The translations under genes and the position numbers were made by a program. 64,000 nt of DNA from Bryopsis sp. KO-2023. Lineage: Eukaryota > Chlorophyta > Ulvophyceae > Bryopsidales > Bryopsidaceae. Positions 4,691 to 33,702 of the stretch are shown here, in pieces (within the stretch, counting starts at the first letter, position 1; every line of letters starts with the position of its first letter). The notes under the pieces were generated by a model, which ran no database searches, was not told the DNA's origin, and saw nothing but the letters and a program-made list of their open reading frames with translations. The stretch is from assembly GCA_030272585.1 (NCBI GenBank), contig BSYQ01000013.1, forward strand, positions 2,232,001 through 2,296,000, written 5' to 3'.

Positions 4691-4805
4691 CGCAGCCCTC
4701 GAACCATTTTGCCCTAGTGTTTGTGTGAACGGAGCGAGCTCCTGAGTGAAAAAGAGTCTAAAGACGCACAAACCGTTGTTTATATCTTTCTTTCCGACAA
4801 ACATA

Positions 4806-6308
4806 ATGGCTGCCGACACACCCGCCGCAATTATTGCGAGATTGGAAGCGGAGGTAGCTAAAAAAGAAGAGGAGCTGCAGCACTTTACGTCGACCGCAGA
4901 GGAGGTGCTGCAGAACAATGAGGCCTTAACCCGGCAGCTCTCAGAGTTGAGTGACCGGACGAAAGCAGCTGAGGCTGCGAAGGAGGCAGCGGAGAAAGCC
5001 AAGGAAAAGGCGGAGGCGGAAAAGAAAGAAGCGGAGGACAAGACCAAGGTCTTGGAAGAAAAATTGGAAGCCATGAAGCTGAAGAAGCAGCGGTTCCAAT
5101 CTCATATGATGGGTAACCATCGTGAGAATGACCTCCGTAAACAAGCTCTCGGGGGAATGGTGGATCGATTTACCGCGGTAGAGGAAACGCTGCAGCGAGC
5201 TGTAGCAACCGCGTGGAGTGCAGCAGCCAACAACCTTAAGAAGGAATTGGCAGAACAAGAGCTGCAGATCGATTTGCTGGGAGAGTCCCTCAGAGACGGC
5301 TCTGAAAAACTTCAAGTGCAGAGCGAAACAACGGACAAGATGCTGCGTTTGAACCCGGCGGTACCAGCACCACGGGTACGCGAAGAACTGGATCGCCAAG
5401 TCCAAGTTCTGTTGTCAAACGCAACACTTGATCTGGAACCGTCCAAGGACGATGATGCGGGAGGCTCAAGCAAGGGCAAGGGGAAAGGGAAAAACAAACG
5501 CCCAAGCTCGCCGTGTAGGGATGCAGATCCACACGGGAAGAGAAGGCGAGAGGACGGTGACGATGAAGGTGGTGAGCCACCGAGGGATCGTATGCCTGGA
5601 GATGCAGCAAGAGCCAACTTGTTACTCAAGTTAAAGGCTGCCGCATTAAAGACTCCAGCACCCTCACAACCAGCACCAACAGTTCAGACTCCCGGAGATG
5701 AGGCTACCGCAATAGCACCGGGGGAGGACTTATTCGACATGAGAGAGGAGGAGCTTTTGGACTTGGATTTTAACGAAGAAATTGACTTCGGCAGTCCACC
5801 TCCTAGGCTCGAAGGTCCTAGTTCTGAACTGGAGGACGGGGAAATAAGGAATGATGAAGGGCCAAGCCAGGTGACAGAGGTTCAGCGTGCGGTCCATCCA
5901 CCGTTGGAGTTAGCTCCAACAGAAGCAGCACTTCGGGCTTTCCGAGAAAAGGTTAAGCTCAGGAGACTAAGGGCGGCTGCTCAGGACAAAGTGGATGCTG
6001 CACCCGGCGAAGTGAACCTGTCACGGGAGGATATCGAGGAGGCTTGCAACCCCATCACTGCGTCAGAGAAATGGCCGAAGGTCCAATATACTAACCCCAG
6101 GGACCGAGCCTTGCAAAATTACCGCGGCAACCGGCACTTTCACGAGTTGCCCATGTGCATTTGGTGCGGGAGAAGCCCAATGCAGGCAAGTGCTCAGCGG
6201 CTGACGCAGAAGAAGTATTCCGTCCTTCCTTGTGGGTATCACCTCGTGTGTGATGCTCATTGGTTGGACAGGTCCAAGACAGTTGGGTGTGGGTATGGGA
6301 GTGGGTGA
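4806..6308 (+). CDS. extra 3' ORF of element A: coiled coil plus CxxC...CGxHxVC cluster
   Basis: 500-residue frame from the ATG at 4806 (first ATG; the frame is open a little further upstream without one). Residues about 8-105 are an Ala/Glu/Lys-rich coiled coil, followed by a second helical stretch to about 200, a Gly/Lys-rich basic region with nuclear-signal-like runs (GKGKGKNKRP, GKRRRED), a long acidic part, and a C-terminal cluster near residues 451-483: CIWC, then 21 residues, then CGYHLVCDAHW. The frame in element B ends in CYYC...CGAHYVCPTHW, and element C has CVFC...CQRHWVC. No transmembrane segment or signal peptide is visible, so it is not an envelope-type gene. Function unknown; a nuclear or particle-associated zinc protein is inference. 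Confidence 0.72.
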   Translation: MAADTPAAIIARLEAEVAKKEEELQHFTSTAEEVLQNNEALTRQLSELSDRTKAAEAAKEAAEKAKEKAEAEKKEAEDKTKVLEEKLEAMKLKKQRFQSHMMGNHRENDLRKQALGGMVDRFTAVEETLQRAVATAWSAAANNLKKELAEQELQIDLLGESLRDGSEKLQVQSETTDKMLRLNPAVPAPRVREELDRQVQVLLSNATLDLEPSKDDDAGGSSKGKGKGKNKRPSSPCRDADPHGKRRREDGDDEGGEPPRDRMPGDAARANLLLKLKAAALKTPAPSQPAPTVQTPGDEATAIAPGEDLFDMREEELLDLDFNEEIDFGSPPPRLEGPSSELEDGEIRNDEGPSQVTEVQRAVHPPLELAPTEAALRAFREKVKLRRLRAAAQDKVDAAPGEVNLSREDIEEACNPITASEKWPKVQYTNPRDRALQNYRGNRHFHELPMCIWCGRSPMQASAQRLTQKKYSVLPCGYHLVCDAHWLDRSKTVGCGYGSG

Positions 6309-6393
6309 GTTTTGTGTTTGTGTTTTTGTGTTTTTGTTTTTTTTCTTTGTGTTTTGGTGTGCGTGGGCGCCCACTTTTTGCGGGGGGGGCGTA

Positions 6394-6814
6394 TGTTAGT
6401 CTTTTAGCGCTATACGAGGTAGTTTGGGATAGAGCCGAGGGTGGCTGACGCATGTGGGTTCACGAGTAAGACAGATTAGACCCAGAGTTTGGGGCATGCG
6501 TCAGCGTACTACACTTAGGGGTACTTAAGAGGCCCACTCGTTGTTTTGACACTCATAGTTACTTTGTAAGAACTCGGGATTCGTGGGATTGGTGTGTTCC
6601 CGCTTGTGTGTGTGTTTGTGTGTGTGTGTGTTAAGTGTTTGCCTGACGCAATCACTTCCCAACCTAAGTGCTCTAGTAGCGTTCACAACCGCGCTAGCTA
6701 GAGAGTTGTCTAAACCAACAAACCCCACAAGTATACTTGCGTTAGCCAGCAAGTTATCACGAATTCAACCAACACAGCCGACCACTATTGCGTCACCCAC
6801 AAGCTTCACTATCA
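6394..6814 (+). repeat. 3' LTR of element A
   Basis: 421-bp LTR, TGTTAGTC...CACTATCA, with a TG microsatellite around 6606-6632. It is preceded by an oligo-G polypurine tract. The five bases after it are CTACT; the matching upstream copy is outside what is preserved. Confidence 0.9.
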
Positions 6815-6819
6815 CTACT

Positions 6820-7370
6820 TCAGGAACGTTCTCGATGGGAGGAAACACCCAGTTCCTCTCCGCCCTCCACAGGTCCAAGCTTTGAGTCATGCAATTCGTC
6901 CCTTCCGTCCCGGGCTCGCGATCCAGACTGTTGAATCTCCCAAGATGTCGTGTACCCTACGATGCAAAGCGGTCGATCGTCAGGTGAAACCGCTCCTGCA
7001 ATTTCTGGAAGATCTTCGGGCTCAACCTGTACTCTTGCTTCTCCGAAAGCCGCGGCAGCGCATCGGGGTACACGTTCTGAGGGCTGGGAATCCACTCCAC
7101 TTGGAAATCAATGTTCACGGCTTCCAATAGCCAAGAGAGCCGCTTGTACTCCTGGAACAGCGGACTCGAACGCGAACATTGACTCCGTAATATGGCAGCA
7201 ATCACCTGACTGTCGGTGATGCACTTCAAACGCCGATCTCAGATCTTGTCTTTGAAGGCCTTGACTGCAAAACCCACTGCTTGCAGTTTTCGTAGTTTTA
7301 TATGCTCTTCCCCCTTCCAGATGCCTGCCGCCAAAGCCATAGGTGGGGCGTCCTTCGAAGCATTCTCATG
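6820..7370 (-). mobile_element. DIRS-like retrotransposon remnant (RT-RNase H end)
   Basis: Read on the minus strand, this stretch keeps the RNase H part of a tyrosine-recombinase retrotransposon: a DSQVIAAIL segment, a WIPSPQNVYPDALPRLS segment, the hallmark DRFAS that follows RNase H in DIRS elements, and then a NWVFPP segment typical of the same family just before element A begins. It is an old fragment with several breaks; no recombinase or terminal repeats are present. Element A lies against its downstream end, so A may have inserted into it. Confidence 0.65.
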
Positions 7371-7394
7371 GATTTTCAGAGACGCTCCCCATCC

Positions 7395-7655
7395 CGTCAA
7401 GCTGGATTACCTTTCGTGCCTTTGAACGAAAGGTATTGTCCGTTTTGTTTGGACGCTGGGGTTTCGACGCCCGAAAACGAGGTGCATTTTCTTTTTGCTT
7501 GTCCTCTTTATGCGCGGTTGCATGTGGACTCGGTCGTGGAAGAGTGTCGTGGCTCTCTGTTTCGTTTGTTTAATTGTCCGGGGCAGGTTCGTGTGGCTGT
7601 TTATATTCGCCGGGCGCTCGCCTTGCGTAGGGAGTGGTTGGACGCTCGTTCGTAG
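7395..7655 (+). mobile_element. LINE 3'-end fragment (zinc-binding C-terminus)
   Basis: About 87 codons, open to a stop at 7653-7655, encoding CPFCLDAGVSTPENEVHF and a following CPLY segment, then an AVYIRRALALRREWL tail. This is the C-terminal zinc-binding region of a non-LTR reverse transcriptase. It closely matches the end of the LINE fragment at 19845-21297 (CPYCLSQGNKTAENERHF, AVYLRRALDFRAQWL). The upstream reverse transcriptase is absent, so this is a 5'-truncated copy, as is usual for LINEs. Confidence 0.7.
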
Positions 7656-8183
7656 TGGGCTTGCAGCGACTGGTGGTGTTACGATATAAGATCCTTTGAG
7701 ACGTTTGGAACAGACGTGTAAGACATAGGGTAGCTTCAGGGTAGCTTCATTAGGTAATGGGACGTAAGGTTTGGTCATGGAAGCTAAAGGAAGCTATCAG
7801 AAGGTTTAGAAGGTCTGGAACGTTCTAGAACAGGGAAGTTCACTGGGAACTCTTGGTTCTCCAGGTTCTTGATAGCTCTCTGTTCACAGCACGCCTGAGT
7901 ATATATTCCCTTGTATTCGAACGTTTTTTTAACTTTTTCCCATGGAGTAACCTTTCCCGTGACAGGTCGTGTTCGTTTTTCGTTGTTCTGGATGTTTGGT
8001 TTAATGGGGAAGTTGGTGTTCTTTGTTGTTTGCTTTGTTTGTTGGGCGCTCGCTCTGGTTTTCTGAGTTGGAAGCAACCGATTCTTGTGTTTGGTTTTAT
8101 GTTTCGATGTTTGGGCTCTTTCTCGAGTTTCGATTGGGGATCTCTGGTTTCTGAGACGTTGGGATCCTTTTTGTTTTGGGAGA
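7656..8183. other. unassigned repeat-like DNA left of element B
   Basis: No gene seen. The first part may be the 3' untranslated region of the LINE fragment. Bases about 8098-8170 recur almost unchanged at 18708-18781 (both contain CTCTTTCTCGAGTTTCGATT), so this is part of a dispersed repeat. The last five bases, GGAGA (8179-8183), are the left target duplication of element B. Confidence 0.5.
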
Positions 8184-8355
8184 TGATACGTTGTCGCACT
8201 CATTTTGCAGTACGAGTGTGTAGTACGGGTTAGTACGGGTTCTAGGGGTTAAGTTCAGAGAGAACACCTTGTAAATTAATTCTCTGGTTTGTAGTGTGTG
8301 TGACCCCAGTCTCAACCTCAGCAACGACTTCACTAAAACCTACAGGGACCTAACA
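8184..8355 (+). repeat. 5' LTR of element B
   Basis: 172 bp, TGATACGTTG...GACCTAACA. It is unusually short for a Ty3 element. No convincing TATA box is seen inside it. Confidence 0.95.
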
Positions 8356-8357
8356 AC

Positions 8358-8369
8358 TGGTTTCGGAGC
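8358..8369 (+). promoter_or_regulatory. primer-binding site of element B
   Basis: TGGTTTCGGAGC, two bases after the 5' LTR, identical to the sites of A', C and D. Confidence 0.85.
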
Positions 8370-8860
8370 GGTAGCACCCTTCCTGCAAGTCGAGTCTACT
8401 TAGTGGAAGAGATCGACAGGAGATTTTGCAGTCGAGGTGCAAAAGATCAGGGTCGGCTAGGTCGAAGAAGGTTTCCCCTCGTGTCTGGAACCTACTTCGT
8501 GTTGCTGCGCACCAACCAAACGCTGGACGAACGAGAACGCACGTTGCTGCGCTCGATCATCCCTCCCAAAATCACAGGATCGATAGATCCTTGGACGCTA
8601 CGACCACCACAGCACGGCGTAGTAGTACTTCCGTTTGTCGGAGAGTTGTCGACACTGAACGCGGTTACCGCAGAGCGGACAAAACGAGTCTGCCAGCGGA
8701 CGTTTCTGCGGACGAATACGTTTCCGCCAGAAATTACGTGCCAGAAACCGCTGCCAGAAACCGCTGACAAAGAGTGACCAATTAGTCACGTGGATTACCC
8801 GCCAACGGAATCCACCAAACGGACACGTGATTCTACCGCCGACGAATCAAGACATCCACC

Positions 8861-11827
8861 ATGAGCGGACACGACGAGCAGCTATACCTGGAATACGGTA
8901 TCGAAGACAATCAGCAAGAGCGCGACGCCCCAGATGGCCCGCCGCTATATCCGCTGATCGTCGCCCAGGAATTACCTGCTGTCGGACTGCCGATACAGGC
9001 AGAAATGGACCAGCCTTTACAGGCATACGGTGTCCCCGCGCACCCGGACATGGTGGAGGAGGCAGGCGATGAGGAAGCGGACATTGGCCCGGAGTTTGAT
9101 GAGGAGATGGAAGAAGAGCCAGGAGTCTTCATCAATCAACAAACGCAGCACCTGCAACAGAGCCAAGTAAACGTGCATAACCAGACCCTGCACGTGCACA
9201 ACGATGGCCTGCGGGAGCGCGATCTCCATGAATCGCAAGAGCGGTTATACAGCCAATTGTCCGATGAGGCTGCCCAGCGGACAGCCCAGGTCGCCGAGCA
9301 CCTTGATAGCCGGATGGAGGGAGCTTGTTCAAGCATGGCTTCCCAAGTACATGATGTGTTGGACTCTACTCTACAGTCCCGCCATCACCAGATCGAAGGA
9401 CAGCTCAGTGAAAGGTTGGATGAGCGGATACAAGATCTGGATGCTGCAGCCAAGGGGAGGCTCAGCCAAATGGAAGCTGGCTTGGCGAATATCCGTGATG
9501 TCGCCCAGAAAGAGGTGGACGAAGCCAAAGAGGCTCAGCGGATATTGGCTGAACAAGTAGCTGACACGGACGAAAAAAGGAAGAAACTTGAAGAAGAATA
9601 TGACCGGCAATATAACGACGCCCTTTGGGGGTTGGATACGGTTCAACAAGAACTGAGAGAGACGCAGGCGGAAATGGGTGCGGGTCAAGATAAACAGTTC
9701 AAGGAAATCGTTCGTGTTAAGTATGATCTCAAAGAGACGCAAGAAAAAGCGGAAAGTTTTCAGATACAGCATCATGCGGAAGTAGCCTATTTGTTAAAGG
9801 AGGCAGCGGCTGCGAAAGAAGCGGCGGCTAGATTACAAGCGGAAATGGAGGAGTTGAAAAGAAGTCAAAGTCGGTCTTCAAGGAGAAGCAGATCGAGAAG
9901 CTCAACAAGGAGCAGAGAACCGCGGGAAATGCTACAAGAAATGCTACAAGATCCGGAAACCGCGCAAGAGCTAAAGAAGGTGTTTGAGGATGTAGCGGAC
10001 ACAAAGTTCACGTCGAATTTTGAGTTTTGGCGGAAGAAAGATGCTGCAGCAGTTGCCACACAAATGGCATCCGCTGCTCAACAAACACCTCTTGTGGCTG
10101 CTATGGCGGGAGCGGGAACCAGAACGGTGGCACAACCACCAAGGTTGTCCGAAGTACAAATTCCATTCGGTCAACCGCCCCAAACCTCATCCGGCTTTGC
10201 CCCGGATTCAGTAGGTTTTCCGCCAATACCACCCGTATTTCCGCGGGCAAATCGACCGATTACCCGACCTGCATCACCCCCAGTCATTATTCCTGGAGTG
10301 GGGCGAGGCAGTGCAATCAGCGGACAGGGAAATGTACCTAGGCCGATCGTGAGGCCTAGCGCTGTGTTTGGACAAACACCAAATACAAGACCACCAGCGG
10401 TATTACAGCCAGTACAACCGCCACAGCGTACGCAGGCTTCTCCCGTGGTACAAACTGTTCCGCTGACAACTCCAACCACCACGTCACCCGAGCCACCTAG
10501 AACATTACCCATGCCACCACCAGTTTCTCAGCCAGTGTTATCACATCCATCAATGATTTCACCACCCGGCTATTATGCCATGGGAGCATCATACATTCGG
10601 CCTTCTATCTTAGGTCACTCCGTGAATGTATACGGAGCTCCATCATCCGGAAACCCCTATGTTGGATGGGGATCCTATCCGCGTATTCCTCAACGCGCAG
10701 GCGGAGGAGGCGGAGGAGGCGGAGGTGGAGATGATGATGGTTCCGGTGATGGAAGTGGCGGAGGCCCATCGGACAGAAGTGGCCGTGGGTCTGCACCTGG
10801 ACCACATATTGGTGGAGGAAGAGAAGGACCATCTAGGAACCCAGGAGGCGGTCCTGGAGATGGTGGTGGTGGAGGTGGCGGAGGAGGCGGACCTCCTGGT
10901 CCCCCAGGCGGGGTCCCTGATTTTATGGGCTATGCACGTCCAGAAAATCGTTTGCTTCACATTCCTAATGCGGTCAAATTCCCGATGCCGAAACCGTATA
11001 CTGGCGCTGGAGATCGCTGGATTCGGGATTGGCAGGCAGAACTCACCAACTTCTGTAAAGTTTATGATTTGGATGAGTCTGTTTGGCTTAAAGTATTCCG
11101 CACAAATCTCTCTGGTTCAGCCGCCACATGGCGGAATATGCAAGAGATGCGGATTCGGGAAGGCGTTCGTCCGATGTTCCAGGACTGGGTACAACTTGTG
11201 GAAGAGTTAGCTATTGCTTTTGAACCTACAAGGATGTCCGATGTTTCGCGTAGGAAGCTGCGGAAACTTCAACAAACGGGGACTGTTCGTTCCTACATTA
11301 ACGCATTTCGGGATCTCATACTCAGAATTCCGAATATGACGGAGGAGGAGCAGTACTTGACGTTTGTTGACGGACTACGGCCCCAGATCCGACATCAAGT
11401 TGTTACAATGGTGACAGAAGGAGTGGAAGCGGCGATAGTCACTGCCGAAAGAATCGATTCGTTGGGAGGCCAATCGCAAAACAACCGCGGACGTGGTCGC
11501 GGACGAGGGCGATGGAATTGGAATTGGAAAAACAAGCCCAAAGCTGACCAGAACCAGCAAATGCAGGGTCAGCAACCGCAACCACCACCTCCACCCCAAG
11601 ATCAAAATCAGCAAATGGGAGGAGGCAACAGAGGTGGAGGCGGCCGTGGCCGCGGAAGAGGCGGAAGACGAGGTGGCGGACGAACTCGAGGTGGTGGCGG
11701 AAGGCAGCAACAAGGCGGAGCTAGAGGCGGAGGCGCATGTTACATCTGCGGTGAAGTGGGTCATGGCTTTGGAAAATGTCCCAAAGGCCCAACTTTTCAA
11801 AAATGGCTAAAAGATCACGCCGCATAG
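8861..11827 (+). CDS. gag of element B, unusually long (988 residues)
   Basis: ATG at 8861, about 490 bp after the PBS. Domains in order: acidic N-terminus (about 1-90); Gln/His/Asn-rich segment; long coiled coil (about 120-330); an Arg-Ser-rich stretch (about 338-355, SRSSRRSRSRSS-like); a Pro-rich linker (about 430-590); Gly-rich stretches encoded by GGA/GGC repeats (about 610-690); the capsid-like core (from about 700, KFPMPKPYTGAGDRWIRDW, then TNLSGSAATWRNM); an RGG-rich basic region; and a single CCHC knuckle near the end (CYICGEVGHGFGKC). Typical chromovirus gag has about 300-400 residues, so the N-terminal 600 are an addition. Gag forms the particle and packages RNA. It overlaps pol by about 50 bases in another frame, an arrangement often handled by ribosomal frameshifting in this group. 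Confidence 0.9.
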   Translation: MSGHDEQLYLEYGIEDNQQERDAPDGPPLYPLIVAQELPAVGLPIQAEMDQPLQAYGVPAHPDMVEEAGDEEADIGPEFDEEMEEEPGVFINQQTQHLQQSQVNVHNQTLHVHNDGLRERDLHESQERLYSQLSDEAAQRTAQVAEHLDSRMEGACSSMASQVHDVLDSTLQSRHHQIEGQLSERLDERIQDLDAAAKGRLSQMEAGLANIRDVAQKEVDEAKEAQRILAEQVADTDEKRKKLEEEYDRQYNDALWGLDTVQQELRETQAEMGAGQDKQFKEIVRVKYDLKETQEKAESFQIQHHAEVAYLLKEAAAAKEAAARLQAEMEELKRSQSRSSRRSRSRSSTRSREPREMLQEMLQDPETAQELKKVFEDVADTKFTSNFEFWRKKDAAAVATQMASAAQQTPLVAAMAGAGTRTVAQPPRLSEVQIPFGQPPQTSSGFAPDSVGFPPIPPVFPRANRPITRPASPPVIIPGVGRGSAISGQGNVPRPIVRPSAVFGQTPNTRPPAVLQPVQPPQRTQASPVVQTVPLTTPTTTSPEPPRTLPMPPPVSQPVLSHPSMISPPGYYAMGASYIRPSILGHSVNVYGAPSSGNPYVGWGSYPRIPQRAGGGGGGGGGGDDDGSGDGSGGGPSDRSGRGSAPGPHIGGGREGPSRNPGGGPGDGGGGGGGGGGPPGPPGGVPDFMGYARPENRLLHIPNAVKFPMPKPYTGAGDRWIRDWQAELTNFCKVYDLDESVWLKVFRTNLSGSAATWRNMQEMRIREGVRPMFQDWVQLVEELAIAFEPTRMSDVSRRKLRKLQQTGTVRSYINAFRDLILRIPNMTEEEQYLTFVDGLRPQIRHQVVTMVTEGVEAAIVTAERIDSLGGQSQNNRGRGRGRGRWNWNWKNKPKADQNQQMQGQQPQPPPPPQDQNQQMGGGNRGGGGRGRGRGGRRGGGRTRGGGGRQQQGGARGGGACYICGEVGHGFGKCPKGPTFQKWLKDHAA

Positions 11828-14800
11828 AGGAGACTTCGCTCCATGCGGCCAGAAGGAAAAGAGCCAGACGCCGAAGATATAGACATCGCAGACGTCAGAA
11901 GCTCCGGGAGTCACGAGCAAGAGAACGAGAGGGGAATAAAAAGACCGAGAAAGAGTCAAAAAGAAATCCCGCCCAGAGGGCTGAAAATCCGCTGATGAGT
12001 ACAAAACTTGGTGACAAAGAGCGGATGGATGATTCAAGTACGGTCATCCTAAGCACTTCCGGCAGAGAGTTGGCGGAAAGTGTTGGTTCAGTACATGAAG
12101 ACTCTGGAAGTTCCTCCGGAGATAGCAACCTGGAATCTATCCCGCCTTGTGGAGAGAAACAGGCTTCGGAAGGAAGTGTAAAAAGTTTAGACCGGACCAG
12201 CCCAAGGGTTCCGTCTGACGCCGGTGCAAGGGAGGCATCGGACAGAAAGAAACAACCAGGGGTTGAAGGTGGGGATTACCTTCAAGACAGTTTTAATCCA
12301 CTGGTCAATAATCACCACCTTAAGTTCATGGGGTATGAGCTTAAGGGGCGGATAGGGGGAGTTTCAATCTCCGCTTATTTGGACTGTGGAGCTACGGAAA
12401 ATTATGTAGCGCAGAAACTTGTGGATCGTTTGGGGTTAGAGTTCTCCTCGTGTAATAAGACCGTTTCATTAGCCAACGGGTCTGTTTGCAATGTGGACAA
12501 ACGATGCGGAAACATCAACATGCAGTTGGGCGGATACAAAACCCAGTTGTCTGCGGATGTTTTTCCTCATCTCACGTATGACATCGTGTTAGGGTTACCG
12601 TGGCTAATCGCCAATAACCCGTCCATAGACTTTGCACAGGGAACTATCAACATTCGCCAAGGTCAAGGTTGGATAACAGTACCGGTAAAGGAAAGACCGA
12701 CTGATTATCTTCAACTTGCGAATGAAACCACACCTCTCATCACCCACAAGAAGATATTCCGCTACATCAAGAAGCAAACTGAAGCCACAGATAGTTTGGC
12801 TTACTTGGTGGTGGTGCGTGAATCTGACCCCACGGATAGCAATCACTTGATGCAATATCCGTATGAGGGGGTAACCGTTGATAGCCTTCAAACTTCAGCG
12901 GGCACCAACACACCACAAGAGACGGAGGTACCGAAGTTGCTGCATGAGCAGATGCACCCGGATATCCGCTCTGTGGTGGAGGAATATAGCCACATTTTTC
13001 CAAAAGATCTCCCACCTGGCATACCTCCCGTCCGCAAGGGTCATGAATTTAAGATCGACCTTGAGGATGAGAGTATGAGCCCAATCCACCGTCCCCTGTA
13101 CAAACTTTCTCCGGCTGAATTGGATGAAGTTCGGACACAAGTGGATTATCTCCTCGAGCAACGGAAGATTAGGCCGTCAGAGAGTCCCTGGGGAGCCCCC
13201 ATACTCTTTGTCCCTAAGAAAGACGGCGGATTGCGGATGTGTGTTGATTACCGATGGATCAACCACTACACCATCAAAAACCGCTATCCACTTCCGCTCC
13301 CCGAAGAGTTAATGGACCGGCTCGCTAAAGCAAAGATCTACACCAAGATCGACCTCCGCTCGGGCTACTGGCAATTTCCAGTCCGGCCAAAGGATACCCC
13401 AAAAACTGCATTCCGCACACGATACGGGCATTTCGAGTTCCTCGTTTGTCCCTTCGGAATGTCCAACTGTCCAGCCCAGTTTCAAACTATGGTGCAGGAT
13501 TTGTTGGGGGAGTTTTTGGACCACTTTGTGGTTGTTTTCATTGACGACATTCTGGTGTTTTCCAATTCAGTGGAAGAACATGTCGATCATTTGAAACAGG
13601 TATTCGAGCGGTTACACAAACACAAGCTCTACGCGAAAGCGAGCAAGTGTGAAGTGGGGGTCAGCGAGACCGATTATCTGGGATATCATTTGTCAGGGAA
13701 AGGCCTGCAACCAATGGATGATAAAGTGCGGGCTATTCAAGAATGGAAGGAGTTGAGCTCAGTTGGGGATGTGCGAAGTTTTCTGGGCATGGTATCTTAC
13801 TATCGTAAGTTTATACCAGAGTTTGCGCGGATTGCAGGACCCTTACATGATCTGATCAAAAAGAATCATGTGTGGACATGGGGGCCTATTCAGCGCGAAG
13901 CCTTCAGCAAACTCAAGCAAAAGATCACCCGCACCCCCATACTTCTCCTACCCGATCCGCTTCTTAGGTACACCGTAATAACGGACGCATCAGGAACTGC
14001 ATATGGAGCAGTTCTGTGTCAGGACCATGGAAAGTGTTAGGTCCCTGTAGGTTTTAGTGAAGTCGTTGCTGAGGTTGAGACTGGGGTCACACACACTACA
14101 AACCAGAGAATTAATTTACAGGTTGTTCTCTCTGAACTTAACCCCTAGAACCCGTACAACCCGTACTACACACTCGTACTGCAAAATGAGTGCGACAACG
14201 TATCAGAAAGGGGCTACAGCCAATAGCCTACCTTTCAAGACGATTAAAACCAGCTGAGACACGATATTCCGCATATGAGCGGGAGCTGGGGGCTGTAGCA
14301 TATGCGCTCAGCCAATGGCGGCATTACCTCGAAGGAGCGCCTGGGGAGGTTACGGTTATGACAGACCATCGGCCGATAACCCACTTCATGACCCAAGCTA
14401 AAATGTCGCGGACACAATCCCGATGGTACACGTCAAGGTATTTTGATTCCATAGGTCCAAAAATCGTCTATGTGCCTGGTAAAGCCAATGTACTGGCAGA
14501 TGCGTTATCCCGAAGCCTTCCTGATTCACAGGATCAAATTCATGCTTTGTCCGCCTGGGTGGTGGATGAAGCGGATGCATGGAAGACCGCTATTGCAGCA
14601 GATCAAAAACTGCAGGCGGAAGTCACGAAAATCCAAGCGGGTAAACCCACGAAACTTTCGTTCGAGGATGGCTGGTTGTATTATCAAGCAACTCCCACCT
14701 CAGACAAAGTACTAGTGGTTCCAAATGGATACCGGAAAAAGGTTATGGGGGAGTTCCATGATGTTCCGAGCGCTGGCCACGCAGGTGCCGCCCGGACATT

Positions 14801-16088
14801 GGATGTGCTACAGCGATACTACTGGTGGAAGGGAGTTGGAAAGGATGTCCAAGCATACGTACGGACATGTCCTGTCTGTCAGCGGACAAAAGCTGATACG
14901 ACGAAGCAGAAAGGGCTTCTGCATCCACTTCCAATACCGACAACAAAGTGGGAACAGATCACCACCGACCTCGTGACTGATTTACCGAAGTCACGTGGGT
15001 TCACCGCCATCGCGGTATTTGTTGATCGGTTAACCAAGTACGTCCGCTTTGCACCGTGCACAAAGGAAATAACCGCCCCGGAATATGCAAAGTTGTTTGT
15101 GGACAACATATACAAACACTACGGCCTTCCAAAAGTGATCATATCCGATCGAGACCCCAGATTCACAAGTTCGTTCTGGCGGTCTTTATTTTCACTTCTG
15201 GGAACCCAACTCCGGATGAGCACAGCCTACCACCCACAAACAGATGGGCAGTCAGAGGTTACTATTCGGGTGTTGGAAGACTTTTTGCGGCCTTATGTGG
15301 AGCGGTATCCAGACCGCTGGGTTGATTTCTTGGCGACAGCGGAATTTGCTGCCAACAACTCCCGCAATGTGTCAACCGGCTATGCCCCAGCACATTTGTT
15401 GTATGGGCAGCATATGGGCCAAATTACCGTGCAGAAAAAGTTAACGGCGAAAGAAGAGTCCGAAATGGCAACCGAAATGGTGAAACGAATGGACGAGCAA
15501 CTGCAGCAGGCAAAGCAGCAGTATGCAACCGCACAAGAGCGGATGTGTGTCCAAGCGAACAAACGGCGGCGGGAAGTAACCTTCAAAGAAGGGGATGAAG
15601 TTTTGGTGCGGAGTGCATTTATTCCGCTGCAATCCTTGCAAAAGATCCCACCAAAAATCCGCCGGAGGTTTGTCGGGCCATTCAAAGTGGACAAAGCGAT
15701 ATCCACAGTCGCTTATCGCCTGCAACTACCACCCCATTGGACTATTCATTCTACCTTCCATGTCTCCAAGCTGAAGGCATACAACCGCTTGTCAGAAGAT
15801 GATGAGCGGGAGGTGGAACCTCCCGAAGGGGAGTTGGTGGATGGCTCCATTGAATATGAGGTCGAGCGTATTCTGCGGGATCGAGGCACACCCAACCGTC
15901 GGGAGTACTTGATTCTGTGGAAGGGCTATGATTTGATGGAAGCCACCTGGGAGCCAGAAGCCCACCTGGCCAATGCCAGCGATATCTTGGCAGAGTATCT
16001 CAAAAACCGCACGCGCTTGCCGACCAAAGAGGAAATCCGCTCTAAGCGGGAAGAAAGGCGGACAAGGCGGCGGAAACAACCTCTTTAG
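11776..16088 (+). CDS. pol region of element B, interrupted by a solo LTR
   Basis: Protease (DCGATENYVAQKL, near 12375), reverse transcriptase (FIDDILVFS near 13540), RNase H, integrase (HHCC zinc domain, then TDLVTDLPKS, SDRDPRFTSSFW, YHPQTDGQSEV) and a C-terminal chromodomain (EYLILWKGYDLMEATWEPE) ending at 16088. The protein is closely related to pol of element A. A solo LTR of the same family (14035-14205, opposite orientation, GAAAG duplicated on both sides) lies in the RNase H part, so this copy is interrupted there. Confidence 0.9.
14035..14205 (-). repeat. solo LTR of the B family inside B
   Basis: 171 bp, the reverse complement of the B LTR with a few differences, flanked by a perfect 5-bp duplication GAAAG (14030-14034 and 14206-14210). 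A second element of the same family must have inserted here in inverted orientation and then lost its interior by LTR-LTR recombination. Confidence 0.95.
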
Positions 16089-16291
16089 ATGATACAGGTT
16101 GATATGGGGAAGGGAACGATGGTTGATGTGTTGGTATCAGTTCACCTATAATCAAATACATCTAAGAGCGAGCTACAGAGAGCTGAGTCAAGATAGCGAG
16201 GGTAATATCAAAGCGGGCTAGAACCTTGGATGAGACGACACTCAATAGAGGAAGTCTTCCATCAGTGACAAGTGAGTGACTCTATCACTTG

Positions 16292-16297
16292 TATAAA
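16292..16297 (+). promoter_or_regulatory. TATA-like box before the extra ORF of B
   Basis: TATAAA, 117 bp before the ATG at 16409 and about 200 bp after the pol stop. It matches the placement of TATAAG in element A (121 bp). Putative internal promoter. Confidence 0.45.
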
Positions 16298-16408
16298 CTA
16301 GCTAGGCTGCAACCCTCCAGCCCTATTTCGTCAAAAGTTTACGCCGAGCGCACTGAGCCTTCAGAAGCAACCGCCACCAAAGCAAAACATTGAGAACATT
16401 TGCGTAAA

Positions 16409-18202
16409 ATGTCTGGAACATCAGACCATTTGGAGCGACTCCGTCAGCAGAGGGATGCGTGGAAAACAAAGGCAGAGGCCTTGGAAACGGAGCTCGCAGA
16501 AGCCTTAGAATCTGGAACTGAGGCGGTGGAATCACATGCAAATGTGGCGGCGGATTACGAAAAGTTACACAAGAAGCTTCAGGAGGGTGTGACAAAAAGA
16601 GATGAGCAGGAGGCGGAAATCTGTGAGCTGGCGGCGGAACTCCGGGAAACCAAGGAGGAAAGGGCGGCGGAAAAAACTAAGCTGGAAGCGGATTGGACAG
16701 ATCGATACCGGGCTCTTCAACAGCAGTTGAGTGATGCTCAAGTGAAAGCCCGTGGTGCGGAAGCGGACCTCAAGACTATCAAACGAGAGTTATCCGCAAA
16801 AGAGGAAGAAAATTCCGCAAAAGATCAAACGATTTCCGCGCGGGATCAAGAAATTTCCGCAAAAACAAAGGAAATCAGCCAGCTGACCACCGACCTCACC
16901 CTCTCCCGGAAAGCGGCCACAAAAGCTCAGGCGGATACCGAATGGTATCACCGGGAAAACAAGCAGCTCATCAGCGAGGCGGAGAAACGCTACAAGCACC
17001 TCGCCACGGTCCAAAAAGAGTTGGCAGCCACGAAAGCCGCTCTCGCCAAGGCGGAAAAGGGAGACGATTTCTGCAGCAGCACGACCGCCCGTGTGTTGAT
17101 GTCAGAACTCGTGGCGTCCAAAGTTGAGGTCAACCGGCTTCGGGCCAGCCTCATGGACATCCCTCAGTCACTCGCGAGCTTCTCACACGGACTCGTGGGA
17201 GTACGCCTGGACACCGCGAAAACGCAGGCGCAGTTGGTGAGAGATGGCCGGATAAAAGATCAGGTCGACATGCATAAGGTCAAGGAGATCACCATCACAA
17301 ACGTGGACCTTACAAAGGCGCATAACTTGGACCAAGTGAACGACTGGTTGAGCCGGATAGACGGGGCAGCGGAGAATATCTCAAAGCAGTTGACGAAACC
17401 ACCCCAGAGTTCCCTTGACGATGACGACAACGAAGAGGTCATAGCGGAAGAACCGACAGGTTCAAAACCACCGCTGAGCGCGGAGGACGCACAAACAAAA
17501 GCACTCGTCAAAGCAGCAATGCTCAAAGCACTTGCGGAGAAAAAGAAAGCAGCCGCGGAGAAAAAGGCGGACGCGGAGAAAACACACGCGGACGCGGGAA
17601 AACAAAAGAAGGCGGACGCGGAGAAAAAGACAACCGCCGAAACCAAGAAAGGGGAGCCGTCGACTCAGGCGGATGCGGAAAAAGGGAAGGAAGCGAACAA
17701 AAAGGGCGCGGAGAAAAGCACCAAGCGGGGGAAGAAACGCACACGTGCGCAGGACGCGAAAGAGTTGCGTGCAGCGCTCAAGAAGATCAAAGGCACGCAC
17801 GATCCAGCACTCGCGGGAACGAAGTGCTATTACTGCGCGGGAACGCAACATGGTGTCGGGGTCAAAACCAGTTGTGGGGCACACTACGTTTGCCCTACAC
17901 ACTGGCCCCATCATCATGTAATGGATCGGGTCATCAATCGGTGGCTCGCGGATAAAAGTATCCGGCCGCTCGATATGACCGCGGAGCATCTTCGCCTCGG
18001 AAAACGTGCGGAGGATTTTCTTCCGCTCCCATCGCTTCCACCCCCGGATGCCACTGATCAGCTCACCTTACCATGTCAGGTGTGTCGGGTCAAATCCGCA
18101 GCCTTCCCTTCGAAAACCGGTGTCAAGGAACTTGGATCCCGGCTGACATACATCCTACGAACGATGTGGGATCTCGAGGGCTTGGACTCGGATTCCGCTT
18201 AA
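16409..18202 (+). CDS. extra 3' ORF of element B: coiled coil plus CxxC...CGxHxVC cluster
   Basis: 597-residue frame from the first ATG at 16409. Residues about 5-235 are a long coiled coil (heptads rich in Ala, Glu, Lys). Then comes a globular-looking stretch, an Ala-Glu-Lys repeat region (about 365-430, AEKKADAEK-like), a basic nuclear-signal-like run (KRGKKRTRAQDAK), and a Cys/His cluster near residues 473-497: CYYC, 12 residues, CGAHYVCPTHW. A further CQVC pair lies near 555-558, and element C has a matching CKLC. The frame follows pol by 320 bp, in the same position as the extra ORF of A. No membrane segment is present. Function unknown. Confidence 0.75.
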   Translation: MSGTSDHLERLRQQRDAWKTKAEALETELAEALESGTEAVESHANVAADYEKLHKKLQEGVTKRDEQEAEICELAAELRETKEERAAEKTKLEADWTDRYRALQQQLSDAQVKARGAEADLKTIKRELSAKEEENSAKDQTISARDQEISAKTKEISQLTTDLTLSRKAATKAQADTEWYHRENKQLISEAEKRYKHLATVQKELAATKAALAKAEKGDDFCSSTTARVLMSELVASKVEVNRLRASLMDIPQSLASFSHGLVGVRLDTAKTQAQLVRDGRIKDQVDMHKVKEITITNVDLTKAHNLDQVNDWLSRIDGAAENISKQLTKPPQSSLDDDDNEEVIAEEPTGSKPPLSAEDAQTKALVKAAMLKALAEKKKAAAEKKADAEKTHADAGKQKKADAEKKTTAETKKGEPSTQADAEKGKEANKKGAEKSTKRGKKRTRAQDAKELRAALKKIKGTHDPALAGTKCYYCAGTQHGVGVKTSCGAHYVCPTHWPHHHVMDRVINRWLADKSIRPLDMTAEHLRLGKRAEDFLPLPSLPPPDATDQLTLPCQVCRVKSAAFPSKTGVKELGSRLTYILRTMWDLEGLDSDSA

Positions 18203-18388
18203 GCACGCGGAATTCATCGACAGAGTGAGAGAGAGAGAGAGTCAGAGCCAGAGATTCAGAGCCGGACAGAGACAGTTTTTCCTTGGGGGTTTTTCGTTCT
18301 TTTCTTTTCTTTTCTTTTCTTTTCTTTTTCTTTCCTTTTGGGTTCTTCTACGGGTGTGGACACCCTGTGGGGGGGGGGGGGAAGTAGT

Positions 18389-18560
18389 TGATACGTTGTC
18401 GCACTCATTTTGCAGTACGAGTGTGTAGTACGGGTTAGTACGGGTTCTAGGGGTTAAGTTCAGAGAGAACACCTTGTAAATTAATTCTCTGGTTTGTAGT
18501 GTGTGTGACCCCAGTCTCAACCTCAGCAACGACTTCACTAAAACCTACAGGGACCTAACA
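18389..18560 (+). repeat. 3' LTR of element B with polypurine tract
   Basis: 172 bp, apparently identical to the 5' LTR. It is preceded at about 18368-18381 by an uninterrupted run of G that serves as the polypurine tract, and further upstream by a (TTTTC)n stretch near 18298-18325 in the 3' untranslated region. Confidence 0.95.
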
Positions 18561-18874
18561 GGAGATTTTGTTCATTTAGGAGTTGATTACATTTAGAGGC
18601 TTTTGCCTTGCTTCGAACGTTGGGACACGCTTCACTCATGTATGTCGTTGCAACAGGGCGGTTTGCCCTACGCAACTTGTAATTCTGTTTCTGTTTCTGT
18701 TTCTGTTTCTTGTTTCGATGTTTAGGCTCTTTCTCGAGTTTCGATTGGGGATCTCTGGGTTCTGAGACGTTGGGATCCTTTGATACCAGCATGGGTCCCT
18801 GAGACGTCAAGGACGTCTGACAGACATATGACTGTATGTATGTCGATTCACCCATGTATGTCGTTGGCAACGAC
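18561..18874. repeat. flank with hairpin repeat and hexamer array
   Basis: After the right GGAGA duplication of B comes repeat DNA without genes. At about 18646-18680 there is a hairpin-forming module (GTTGCAACAGGGC ... GCCCTACGCAAC) followed by TTGTAATT and a (TTTCTG)n array. The same module recurs at about 42329-42362 and, inverted, inside the hAT element at about 19550-19585. Bases 18708-18781 repeat 8098-8170. The last eight bases, GCAACGAC (18867-18874), are the left target duplication of the outer hAT element. Confidence 0.6.
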
Positions 18875-19305
18875 CAGACATGGGCTGAGACCCCTGTGCA
18901 CAGGCTAGAACAGAACAGACTGTCTGTTCTGTGCACAGGGTCGGACCTGTGCTGCACAGGTGCACAGACCTGTACAGCACAGCACAGACAGGGTCTGTGC
19001 AAAGTCTGTGCAGGTCTGTGCAAAGTCTGTGTAGGTCTGTGCAGATTCTGTGCAGATCTGTGCAGATTCTGTGCAGATTCTGTGCAGTTGAAACGGATTC
19101 TTTTCTGAGGCTGAATACTTCCAGCCGCCACTTAATCCGTTCTTCGCACACGTTGGGAGACGACCAGAAATTCTGTAGGAACGGTCTGAGACACGAGAGT
19201 ATACAACTGAAATCTTATTTCAACAAGCTTGTTCTTTACAACGATTCCCCGCCTTTTATACTCTCAGCCCAGAGCTTCTAGAAAACTCCCAGCCCATCTC
19301 CTAAC

Positions 19306-21436
19306 CAGTCATGGGCTGCACAGGACAGACCCCTGTCCTGTGCAGGTTCTGTGCACCCTGTGCTGTCCTGTCCTGTGCAGCGGAATTGCACAGGCCAGAA
19401 CAGCACAGACTGTCTGTTCTGTGCACAGGGTCAGACCTGTGCTGCACAGGTGAGCAGACCTGCACAGCACAGCACAGAATCTGCACAGAACTGCACAGAA
19501 TCTGCACAGATTTTGCACAGAAACAGAAACAGAAACAGAAACAGAAATTACATGTTGCGAAGGGCCAATCCGCCCTGTTGCAACCACATACAATGTCTCA
19601 GCCATGTCCAAAAGTCCACAGAAGATGAAGTCTCCAATAAAACCCAAGTACAATCAACGAGAGACCCATCACTAAGGAATCAATGTAGCAGAAAGTATTG
19701 CCAAAAAACGTTCCCAAGAAAAAGAAACCCGGAACACCAAGCAACAACCAAAAGGAGAGCGAAAACTACTGTCAAACGCCCACCACAAACGACCAACAAA
19801 CAAAACGAAACAAACAAACACAAAACAAACAAACAAAAACCACGTCACGGCTGAGCCTCAAGCCACTGAGCTCGAAAATCCAACGCCCGACGAAGGTAAA
19901 CAGCCACCCGATACTGACCCGGCAAATTGAACGAACGACGCAACGAAAACCCCGATTCAGACACAACCGATCCCACACGCAAACCAGAATACAACGGACA
20001 AAAGAACAGGAAATGCCGCTCGTTCTCAGCCGTCTTGTTGCCTTGCGACAAACAATAAGGACAGAAACGCTCGTGCAAAGGCACATCCCTCCGTAGCAGA
20101 TCCGCCACGTCGATCTCCAAACCGTGCAAACGCGCACGAAAACGCACCCACACCGTCCGCAGCCCCACATCCTCGAATGAAGACAGCGCTCTCGAGTAGC
20201 CGAACACCGGCTTGAACACGTTGTAAAACGCAACAATACGAGGATGTCCCGAACGAAGACGAGCCACAATGTCCGCCTTATACGCCGCGGTCCACGACGC
20301 AAGGTCCACTTCTCCAGATCCATCGAATCCAGGAGCAAATCGGCGCACCATATCCTTGAACAAAACCCACCAAGAGCGCTGAGAGACCGTGGCTTCCGAT
20401 TGGAGCCAAACGATCAACTGCCGAGCCGGATGGTCGACAGGCAAAGTCATCATACGATTCCAAAACCGAACCGCGTTCTTGTTGAAGTAGTAGAGGATCG
20501 GCAGAGCACCCATCTCCAAATACACCACATTGCGAAGCGTCCTCACGGGAAGCCGCAACACCCGCTTCAGAAAACGAATCTGCAAACCGTTGAACGCATC
20601 CTTGTGCGCCTGAGTCAAGAAGAAGCACCAAACTGGCGCCGCATACTGAACCTTCCCCAAAACATACATGCGAAACAGAGACAGAAGCGTCTTCGGATCG
20701 CGAAGCCCCAGATCCCCGGATCGAGCCAACAAGCGCCCCACTGCCGCCTGTCCGTTTTGCAGAGTCCTGTCGATATGATTTCCAAACACGTTCACGTTGC
20801 CCGGACCATCCTTGAAGAAAACTCCCAAATATTTCATCGTCGATTGCAGCTCCACATCCACACCGTTGAGAGACACAGTCGTGAGCCCCCGCGCATTCAC
20901 CACCATCCCTTCCGTCTTCTCCAGATTCGTCTTCACTCCCCAATCGTGCTCATACTGCCCCAGCACATCACCAACAGCCGAGACATCCTCCACAGACGAG
21001 CACGGCACCAGCGTGTCGTCCGCAAAGATGAGCGCCACAATGATCGCCAAACCCAGAACGATGTGGCTAACCTGCGCCCCCTCCAGCAGCCGCGGCAAGT
21101 TGTCATGATATAACGTGAAAAGCAGCGGACTGAACGGACAGCCCTGACGAACGCCCCTGCCAATTCCAAACGGCGCCGTGCACCCCTTCGTCCCACGAAC
21201 CACCGCCGTCGAGTTCTCGTACATGAACGTCAGTACAACAAAAAAGGGATCAGCCAGGCCCAACCTCCGCAAGTGCAGCCACAATCGCGAATGGCTAACG
21301 CACAGAATCTGCACAGACCCTGTCTGTGCTGTGCTGTACAGGTCTGTGCACCTGTGCAGCACAGGTCTGACCCTGTGCACAGAACAGACAGTCTGTTCTG
21401 TCCTGTCCTGTGCACAGAGGTCTCAGCCCATGTCTG
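19306..21436. mobile_element. hAT element carrying a LINE reverse-transcriptase fragment
   Basis: 2,131 bp bounded by CAGTCATGGGCTGCAC (left) and the inverted CAGACATGGGCTGAG end (right), with a perfect 8-bp duplication CTCCTAAC (19298-19305 and 21437-21444). Both ends carry about 140-210 bp of the CTGTGCA-rich subterminal repeats seen in the other two hAT copies. There is no transposase. The interior instead holds a (CAGAAA)n stretch, the inverted hairpin module (about 19550-19585) and a LINE 3' portion. It is presumably moved by the transposase of the copy at 23628-29588. Confidence 0.88.
19845..21297 (-). pseudogene. LINE reverse-transcriptase fragment captured in a hAT element
   Basis: Open frame of about 480 codons on the minus strand, ending at 19845. 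It starts inside the reverse transcriptase (GRGVRQGCPFSPLLF, then the catalytic FADDTLV), continues through the thumb (MKYLGVFFKD) and a long C-terminal region, and ends with the zinc-binding tail CPYCLSQGNKTAENERHF. The endonuclease and front of the polymerase are missing, so it is a 5'-truncated non-LTR retrotransposon (exact clade not determined). The sequence up to about 19650 looks like its 3' untranslated region. Codons upstream of about 21297 in the same frame are hAT terminal repeat and not part of it. That so long a fragment is still open suggests recent capture. Confidence 0.82.
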
Positions 21437-21798
21437 CTCCTAACCTTACAAATACTAGCTATCATCTAGCTCTCCCCAAAACGTCTCTATCATTTCTCAG
21501 CTCAGCCCTTCTAGCCAGAGCTCCGACTAACCCTTTATAACCCTTGATAACCTCTAGACTAAGGACCCAGACTGAAGCTCCTTTCAGTCTGACTCCCGAC
21601 TCTTTACCCAACTCTCAGCCATCTGAGATCTGACACTGAATATACTGAACCTGGTTCGAACTCTTTTCGTTACGTTTCAGCCTCTCATTGAGCATCATGT
21701 AACTACCCCATTCTCAATCAGTCCGCGACTACCTGGAACTCTCAGACTGTAACCTCTGTTTTCCGCCTAGATCTTCGCCTACTAAGTCAGCCGTTTCA

Positions 21799-22313
21799 CT
21801 CCTCCCCCCTTAGAGAGAGATCGCTGACCCAGCGATGTTCTGTACACTAAGTTCGTATTGCACGACTTCACCAGAACTGCCAAGTGACTTAACTCGCTTA
21901 TTCTGAGAATACCTCTGATATAGCTGTAAGCAATATTCTCCGGCGTTTTCCGTAACAACTTCCCGATTGCGACTTGAGCTGAATGTTGGTTTCTGCTTAT
22001 GGTTACTTCTGCCGCTGTGACATCCCATCCCAGCCCGTTCACACATAAACCCAACCCTGTTCAATAGATTTCACAGCCCACACTGGAAATCACACAGTCT
22101 CAGCTCCAGTCAAACTGTAATTTTCACAAGTGTTTTTACACACTCAGCATGTTAATTGTTTTCCAGAAATTCCCTTTTACCCTCACTTGATCCATTCACT
22201 GTTCTTTTCCTTTTTCTTCCAAAAACAAAATAAAATTCAAACACCCAAATACCAACAGAAAATCATATTTCACTCTTGATCCTATTTTTTTTTTTTTTTT
22301 TTTAATATTCAAC
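21799..22313 (-). other. 3' untranslated region and polypurine tract of element C
   Basis: Directly inside the 3' LTR the minus strand reads an AAGGGGGGAGGAG polypurine tract (about 21799-21812). The rest up to the extra ORF is AT-rich and non-coding, with a T-run near 22287-22303 on the plus strand. Confidence 0.75.
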
Positions 22314-23086
22314 TCAGGCTTTTCTGAGTTTCACATTTCTGGATCCTCCTGAACTTCCAGGAGGTTTCCTTTTCTTTCCTTCTGGTTCACTGTCTCCGCC
22401 TGGCTCATTGACGACCCAATCCCCATCGTAATCCGTTGGTTCTGCCTCGTCTTCGGCTGCCTCGAATTTTCTCAGGGGGCCCACGGTCCGCTTGGCCTTC
22501 ATATACACTCCCCGAGTATAATCCGACCCCAACTTGAAACCCAAGGCGCAGAGTTTGCAGGTTTCCGAGTGTAGCACCATTGGTGGCCCTGTTTCAGCTG
22601 GTACCCACATTCTCCGCCAGTCTCGTTTTTCCTCATCCACTTCCAGACTGACACTCAGCCACACCCGATCCCGACACCCGATATTCGAGCACACCCAGTG
22701 CCGTTGGCAGTCTTCTCCGGTCGGCTGACAGTTGCTGCTCGAGGTGCGACAAAACACACAAGTGTGTTTTTCCCCCTCTTCCTGCTTTGGTTCTCCGCCT
22801 GATATTTCTCCCTGTCGTTGAGCAACCGGGTGCGTTTAGCCTCCCAGCTATCTCTTTCCGCCTGAAATCCCCCCTCTTCTTCCAGCTCGGCGATCTTTTT
22901 TTTCAACCTCTCCTTCTCTTCTCCCCATTCCTGTTGTTCCGCTTCCTGGATTTTTTCCATCCTTTCTTCCTCTGCCATATACTGCTCCAGCATCCCTTGC
23001 AGCTTTTCCACCACTCCTGTCACCTTCCCAGCGTTATCCTTGATCTCCTCCAAAAGTGCCTGGGCTCCTGCCTTGAATTCCACCAT
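22314..23086 (-). CDS. extra 3' ORF region of element C: coiled coil plus Cys/His cluster
   Basis: Begins at an ATG (23084-23086, minus strand) 112 bp after the pol stop. The first part is a coiled coil (Lys/Glu heptads). The second part contains CVFC, 13 residues, CQRHWVC, then a further CKLC pair and an acidic Lys-rich tail. The order and spacing match the extra ORFs of elements A and B, although the overall sequence is divergent. It is not open throughout in one frame (about one break). Function unknown. Confidence 0.62.
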
Positions 23087-23197
23087 TTTTTTTTTCACAA
23101 AAAGTCGTCCCGAAACGTCCTCTGTCCTTTGTCTTGCGTTCGTCCTGTTCTTGCGCTCCGTTTGCTCTGTACACTCTCAAACTCGAAAAAACCAGAA

Positions 23198-23619
23198 CTA
23201 GTCCATGGGAGACTTTTGACGTAAATACTCCTGCAGCACTTGCTGCGCATTACCCAAGTGATGGGACGGGAGCCACTGGTCCTCTTCCGATCCGTATCCT
23301 TCCCAGGAAACCAAGTACTCTGTCACATTCTTCTTTTTCCGCCGTTTGGTTCGATGTGTCTTGATCTTTTCGACGATATATTCCTCGACTCCTTCCAACA
23401 CCACTGGATCTGGAGGTGGAGAAATAGCCCTGGCTGGAAACTCCTCTGATCCATCTTCAAAAGCTTTTAGTTTGGAAACATGAAAAACATCATGTATTTT
23501 CCAGTGATTAGGAAGTTCCAACCTGTAAGTTACTGATGTCACAATATCAATAATTCTAAAAGGTCCACAAAACTTAGATACCAACTTCCGGCCCATCATT
23601 GGCGGTAAAGGTAAATCAG
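23198..23619 (-). CDS. pol C-terminus of element C with chromodomain
   Basis: Portion of pol left of the hAT insertion. It encodes the integrase tail (KFCGPFRIIDIV, HDVFHVSKLKAF) and a chromodomain (EYLVSWEGYGSEEDQWLPSHH) ending at 23198. The chromodomain is more divergent than those of A, B and D. Confidence 0.85.
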
Positions 23620-23989
23620 CTGTCGATCAGACATGGGCTGAGACCCCTGTGCACAGGACAGGACAGAACAGACTGTCTGTTCTGTGCACAGGGTTGGACC
23701 TGTGCTGCACAGGTGCACAGACCTGTACAGCACAGCACAGACAGGGTCTGTGCAAAGTCTGTGCTGGGTCTGTGCTATGTCTGTGCTCTGTCTGTGCAGC
23801 ACAGGTTCATCCTGTCCTGTGTGAAGCACAGGACAGAACAGATGTGCACAGGTGCCTGGGGACAAACACACAGACTGCACAGACCCCAAGTCTGTGCAGG
23901 TTCTGTCTGGACAGGGTTCACACAGAGATGGACAGGGTTCACACAGAGATGGACAGGGTTCACACAGACTTGGTTTTTTTCAATATTTC

Positions 23990-33695: not shown

Positions 33696-33702
33696 CTCAG
33701 AT

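Follow-up and report, generated by a model that had tools for sequence, protein, structure and literature searches.

An extra gene behind pol in three retrotransposons

The window, the whole stretch of 64,000 nucleotides (nt) analyzed here, is part of contig BSYQ01000013.1 in the 91-Mb genome assembly of the alga Bryopsis sp. KO-2023. An LHCII gene of this genome has Bry-Lhcb1, a name in which 'Bry' can be read as Bryopsis, in third place among its best matches in the Protein Data Bank (E-value 2.5e-91), the first being LHCI-2 of 9vfj. It contains three retrotransposons (elements A, B and C) with an additional gene, ORF3, whose predicted product carries a cluster of Cys and His residues. All three elements have the reverse transcriptase (RT), RNase H, integrase and C-terminal chromodomain by which chromoviruses are recognized, and the chromodomain pol precedes ORF3 in the sense orientation in each of them, as stated in a preliminary description of this window. 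The features of these elements, and of a fourth one that lacks the gene, are listed here (LTR, long terminal repeat; aa, amino acids).

786-4355, forward strand: element A pol, with a protease remnant, RT, RNase H, integrase and chromodomain
4746-6308, forward strand: element A ORF3, truncated within the Cys/His cluster, the second CxxC pair being absent from this copy
8184-8355, forward strand: element B 5' LTR, 172 bp, TG...CA, with the target-site repeat GGAGA directly before it
8861-11827, forward strand: element B gag, with Retrotrans_gag and part of a CCHC knuckle
11776-16088, forward strand: element B pol, which includes the chromodomain and is divided into frames 11776-14040 and 14190-16088
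16400-18202, forward strand: element B ORF3, open, 600 aa, with the Cys/His domain at about 17789-18199
18389-18560, forward strand: element B 3' LTR, followed by the target-site repeat GGAGA (18561-18565), with a G-rich tract just upstream
22314-23176, reverse strand: element C ORF3, broken over two frames, 22655-23176 (coil half) and 22314-22835 (Cys half)
23201-23626, reverse strand: end of element C pol, with an SH3-like domain and the chromodomain
29065-33716, reverse strand: element C gag at 32709-33716 and the larger part of its pol at 29065-32805
34967-41924, reverse strand: complete chromovirus without the extra gene, with identical LTRs, the target-site repeat GTCTG and a 1745-aa gag-pol frame with chromodomain

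In the preliminary description, the frame was said to begin with a coiled coil and to end in a Cys/His cluster in all three elements. This holds for element B, which is complete (8184-18560) and has the only whole ORF3 of the three, located between the end of pol (16088) and the 3' LTR (18389). Its cluster reads CYYC-x12-CGAHYVCPTHW, with CQVC further on, and its heptad score exceeds those of all 100 shuffled sequences, which the scores for A and C do not. ORF3 of element A is cut off within the cluster and has 500 residues counted from the Met, compared to 604 in the majority of the other A copies. The longer A copies also have a second CxxC pair (CNMC), contradicting the earlier statement that this pair is limited to B and C. 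In element C, the cluster is in a separate frame from the coil half. Copies of C elsewhere in the genome have an open frame, mostly of 412 residues, with about 70 extra residues between the two halves (locus L061), indicating an internal deletion and a change of frame in the window copy.

Element C is a single element in two pieces (22314-23626 and 29065-33716), with other repeats between them (roughly 23.6-29.6 kb), and its RT is identical across 204 residues to that of a C-family copy on the contig labelled C3. The LTR pair and target-site repeat are seen for element B and for the chromovirus at 34967-41924, while elements A and C of the window are rearranged. In the chromovirus at 34967-41924, the longest sense frame between pol and the 3' LTR has just 73 residues and there is no third gene, which excludes the possibility that the gene is universal to chromoviruses.

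A Cys/His pattern common to ten families

Ten families carrying the gene (A, B, B2, C, C2, C3, C4, D, E and F) were distinguished by reading individual loci. The frames of all ten families contain an eight-position pattern, C-x2-C, C-x2-H-x2-C, then two or four residues followed by His or Cys, and C-x2-C, which was found in none of 5000 shuffles of each frame. In the alignment, seven ligand columns are invariant and one is occupied by either His or Cys; this last position is followed by Trp in nine of the ten rows, and the final pair is located 38-60 residues further on.

Sequence searches link many of these families directly. With C as the query against the genome, matches were obtained to C2 (E-value 1e-16), C3 (1e-5) and C4 (5e-4), and a search with the C3 gene found C2 (1e-7), C (2e-5), D (4e-4) and C4 (6e-4). 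C4 in turn is linked by E-value to C, C2 and C3; B is linked in the same manner to B2. E and F first appeared below threshold in the C3 search (E-values 0.04 and 0.3) and were identified by reading loci L070 and L071. A profile of D, E and F matches the profile of C to C4 with an HH probability of 95.7% (97.6% for E alone and 95.6% for F alone). The probabilities against the other seven families are 10% for A and 25% for B/B2, both above those of all 40 shuffles. Based on these E-values and profile probabilities, C, C2, C3, C4, D, E and F are one protein family, and A, B and B2 are likely to be further members. The earlier proposal that A, B and C share one gene agrees with the ligand pattern and the position behind pol, while the profile match of A and B to C is weak.

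Carrier elements include a Helitron

In families A, B, C, D, E and F, ORF3 is located behind a chromodomain pol, with both chromodomain and RT present in D, E and F. The B2 gene is behind an RT 97% identical to that of B, the RT being the only part of pol seen for this family. C2 is an LTR element, as 9 of 13 matches to the LTR alone have a full match on the same strand 10.4-10.8 kb away (40 of 143 candidates scored). No pol was seen in the C2 loci that were read. In both B and C2, ORF3 closely precedes the 3' LTR.

The position of the gene is recovered in a survey of RT hits: it is found 2-5 kb downstream of RT in 51 of 150 scored hits (1779 candidates), at a median distance of 3303 bp, and within the same span upstream in 5 of 150. 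Near RT classes with 78-79% (0 of 35) or 91% (0 of 3) identity to that of D, no gene was detected; these classes may be without it or have one too diverged to be recognized. No counts were drawn from a survey based on the chromodomain, in which 150 of 1097 candidates were scored.

Family C3 is a Helitron. At all five loci, two paralogues of the gene (454 and 449 residues, 76% identical) flank a Helitron_like_N domain (151.7 bits) within a 1386-aa frame. A PIF1 helicase (E-value 8e-53 in locus L075) is in the same reading frame as judged by coordinates, and the element therefore has Rep and a PIF1-type helicase in one frame. Helitrons typically have 5'-TC and 3'-CTRR ends, the latter with a hairpin, and insert between A and T. 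The carrier of C4 is unclassified. Six of its seven copies have a divergent partner gene whose motif, CPCC-x18-CQRHLTC, is similar, with 186-bp tandem repeats between the two genes. The Helitron, C2 and C4 rule out a gene restricted to chromoviruses. The original assignment to chromoviruses is correct for A, B and C and has to be extended to the Helitron and the other carriers, with the element at 34967-41924 as a chromovirus without the gene.

An unclassified element on contig C11 (3.823-3.834 Mb; loci L065, L076 and L081) has such a divergent gene pair, with 186-bp tandem repeats both between the genes and beside them. Additional proteins, roughly 516-557 residues long, form a set similar to the partner gene. 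At 3.347-3.474 Mb of the same contig, Helitrons belonging to a second family are clustered, with a 1806-aa frame and numerous copies spaced about 9-12 kb apart; the matches listed near them include no gene of the present kind.

Selection within families A and B, and divergence between families

A search of the genome with protein A gave 83 scored matches from 240 candidates, 81 of them free of stop codons, and protein B matched 47 loci across at least residues 11-400. The B search also gave the 11 matches of B2, at 39-40% identity. The element C piece has 56 matches at or above 358 bits, and 29 matches at 33-42% identity from the same query constitute C2. The frame is therefore not confined to the window copies, the outcome that the preliminary description had named as grounds for abandoning its proposal; there are dozens of genome copies each of A, B and C. 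On contig C14 (31463-46040), C genes are spaced exactly 7046 bp apart, as if the element were in tandem.

Variation among the copies is concentrated at third codon positions. The numbers of variable sites at the first, second and third positions of ORF3 are 31, 25 and 96 for A (28 copies of 30 loci) and 66, 45 and 167 for B (25 of 30). The end of pol shows a similar pattern (5, 3 and 29 for A; 6, 3 and 14 for B), unlike the gap between pol and ORF3 (12, 6 and 13 for A; 11, 8 and 9 for B). The dN/dS-like ratios, with variants scaled to opportunity, are 0.163 for A (29 copies) and 0.222 for B (30 copies). These observations indicate that the protein is under selection in A and B, in agreement with the earlier view that the frame is a genuine gene. 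Chance open frames are ruled out by the codon-position bias, the ratios and the comparison of the Cys/His pattern with shuffled sequences.

Between families, in comparison, ORF3 is far less conserved than RT. The identities for RT and ORF3 are 97% and 40% for B/B2, 75% and 25% for A/B, 87% and 29% for D/E, and 76% and 26% for D/F. The low identity of ORF3 could reflect either fast divergence of the gene or its exchange between elements, the two being indistinguishable as the synonymous sites of ORF3 are saturated. Among seven Ty3-type families, the identities of the domain and of RT are correlated (Mantel r 0.86, 1 of 5040 permutations). On the other hand, the C domain is nearer to C2 and C4 (0.39 and 0.36) than to D, E and F (0.19-0.23), despite a C RT that is 63-67% identical to those of D, E and F. 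The domain tree is of low resolution, with long branches and one of seven inner branches starred, and does not fix the number and direction of transfers; the Helitron and C4 sequences as a single clade are not rejected (p-AU 0.256).

Sequence features of the ORF3 protein

The Cys/His cluster is predicted to bind zinc. No Pfam cut-off was reached by the frames of A, B, D, E and F, the C pieces or the ten cores, and the same scan gave no match to GDSL or DEDDy domains. Weak matches to coil-type models (CobN, 0.0024 for A; SPAM, 0.0034 for F) were below the cut-off and were set aside. A search of the Protein Data Bank by sequence found no match, with best E-values of 0.75 (B), 0.86 (E) and 2 (all-family profile). 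The cluster may represent a zinc domain that current Pfam models do not cover.

The order of the putative ligands, CxxC, CxxHxxC, His or Cys, Trp, and CxxC, is similar to that of RING domains, and we lean toward a RING-like adaptor or ligase. A PHD finger was rejected (profile probability at most 0.4%).

By a crude heptad score, a coiled coil is suggested in six of the ten families (B, C3, C4, D, E and F, each above all 100 shuffles), while A, B2, C and C2 do not exceed all of their shuffles. Basic motifs resembling nuclear signals are present in eight families, E and F being the exceptions. No membrane segment is evident in the ten families, the highest 19-residue Kyte-Doolittle mean being 1.39 (in D), consistent with the earlier statement that an envelope-like segment is absent.

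No relatives outside this genome were found in the searches made. Residues 440-520 of A, searched against 5.8 billion proteins, gave one candidate and no match. Neither the viral contigs, for which B pol, C, E and A served as queries, nor the phages, searched with B, yielded a confirmed match. Among the matches listed in the genome for B, A, C, C3 and C4, there is no significant low-copy host relative, although fast divergence could hide one.

Possible function of the gene

Some of the carriers transpose by way of RNA and an integrase, others as DNA by way of a Rep-helicase. Capsid formation, reverse transcription and integration would consequently be excluded as the shared task, which would leave expression and host silencing as the simplest remaining choice. 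We suggest that the Cys/His-cluster protein acts in the nucleus to protect its element from host silencing, with a probability of roughly one in three. The protein would oligomerize through its partly supported coiled coil, would be directed to the nucleus by the basic motifs found in most of the families, and would function at a step that LTR elements and Helitrons have in common. Its mode of action could be that of a RING-type ubiquitin ligase, or could involve binding to DNA or chromatin.

Several observations weigh against this proposal. The spacing C5-x4-C6, present in seven families, differs from that usual in RING domains. The Pfam RING match of the E core is below threshold (19.7 bits, cut-off 50), as is the Prok-RING_4 match of the A frame (11 bits, E-value 0.42, cut-off 27), and the other eight of the ten cores scanned against Pfam have none. 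The D/E/F profile against five RING sequences gives an HH probability of 33% and a score of 22.25, with at least 1 of 60 shuffles reaching 22.62; the all-family profile gives 5%. AlphaFold models, made from only one or two window sequences, have mean pLDDT values of 32.6 and 34.3, too low for a cross-brace fold to be judged either way. A, B and B2 are joined to the other families only by the pattern, the place of the gene and a weak profile match. The selection test used the best-matching copies (30 of the 83 A matches and 30 B matches), which favours low nonsynonymous change. Finally, the gene may be a neutral passenger of low-copy families, shared by recombination; in bdelloid rotifers, ORF3 types are shared without a departure from neutrality, according to the accessible part of a study of their retroelements (PMC5408684).

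A possible but somewhat unlikely alternative is a helper of transposition or targeting, a DNA-binding protein that would recognize the element encoding it, or the chromatin of the host, and so direct insertion or replication. The Cys/His cluster and the likely coil would suit a DNA-binding dimer, the fast divergence between families fits recognition of each element's own sequence, and 186-bp tandem repeats are present between the divergent C4 genes. However, LTR elements and Helitrons differ in their insertion chemistry, and chromoviruses already possess a chromodomain for targeting.

The proposed protection from silencing also has a bolder form, which we regard as rather unlikely: a single RING-like nuclear family would have moved between LTR retrotransposons, Helitrons and other elements, and would disable or degrade a common silencing factor of its giant-celled host, diverging quickly in an arms race.

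The protein could instead be a second structural or RNA-binding component of the particle, similar to Gag or nucleocapsid, that aids RNA packaging or assembly. A coil, a basic stretch and a Cys/His cluster form a layout known from nucleic-acid-binding accessory proteins, and the gene stands behind pol in six of the families (A to F). This role is nonetheless unlikely, as the Helitron has two such genes at every locus read and, to our knowledge, Helitrons do not form particles. Element B, moreover, already encodes a gag, which includes part of a CCHC knuckle.

A captured host gene of little function is quite improbable. Helitrons are known for gene capture (in the accessible text of PMC4289320 and PMC4021074), and the divergence between families is very large. 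Against this stand the third-position bias and low dN/dS-like ratios of A and B, and the lack of a significant low-copy host relative among the listed matches, where fast divergence could hide one.

An envelope-like gene for passage between cells or nuclei can be dismissed as highly improbable, since no 19-residue mean hydropathy exceeds 1.39 and a Helitron carries the gene, even though third genes of Ty3 elements are mostly envelope-like, the gene follows pol, and transfer between nuclei would pay in a siphonous host with many nuclei in one cytoplasm.

Comparison with known systems

By analogy, the nearest case is ORF3 of bdelloid rotifers and the nearest functional model is VANC of Arabidopsis VANDAL elements. 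In bdelloid LTR retrotransposons and Terminons, the type of ORF3 is reported to be common to elements of the LTR and Penelope-like classes (Rodriguez, Kenefick and Arkhipova 2017, PMC5408684). In the accessible part of that paper, these are extra frames behind pol, of types shared across element classes, with CC (coiled-coil) as one type, and they are fast-evolving accessory genes missing from some families, as in the alga. There are differences as well. The bdelloid enzymes are a GDSL esterase and a DEDDy exonuclease, and their sharing is among retroelements. The algal protein has a Cys/His cluster that matches no Pfam family, and its sharing reaches a DNA element, the Helitron. The words 'zinc', 'ring', 'chromovirus' and 'helitron' are absent from the text of PMC5408684 that was searched.

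VANC is also an element-borne accessory protein that has diverged between elements, and its tandem-repeat targets may be compared with the 186-bp repeats of the C4 element (accessible parts of PMC5735166 and PMC10398659). VANDAL is a group of DNA transposons, and the likeness is one of description, the function of the algal protein being inferred (PMC5735166, in part). RAG1, which derives from a transposase, likewise couples a RING ubiquitin ligase with a protein of mobile-element origin (PMC10799480, accessible part). It does so as a domesticated fusion, however, and the algal gene is separate and inside active-looking elements.

No description of such a gene was found in the literature on third genes of chromoviruses, on their RING or zinc genes, on accessory genes of Helitrons, or on Bryopsidales genomes, in a search that barely covered subscription journals. 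Overall, the interpretation in the preliminary description is supported, and the observation itself is partly confirmed.

Accessory genes common to several element classes are rare, and the printed case found, that of the bdelloid rotifers, is among retroelements. A gene carried by both LTR retrotransposons and a Helitron would mark a bottleneck common to unlike chemistries, for which host silencing is the simplest candidate. Given their ten families and hundreds of copies, the selection seen inside families and the very fast divergence from one family to another, these elements could serve as a system for finding the genome defence of the alga and the means by which elements defeat it.

Other features of the window

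Element A is flanked by an inverted repeat (508-929 and 6394-6814, 97%); its gag side is missing and both ends are rearranged. The first residues of its pol overlap the inverted repeat of the far side of the element. Pol of element B is broken by an antisense insert of B's own LTR (98%) at 14035-14205. The chromovirus at 34967-41924 is very young, with LTRs identical over 243 bp (BLAST). A frame at 19845-21422 on the reverse strand was judged by eye to be similar to LINE reverse transcriptases, with a zinc-finger region at its C terminus. Finally, a tRNA-Sec is predicted by ARAGORN at 51022-51108, which suggests that the alga likely makes selenoproteins.

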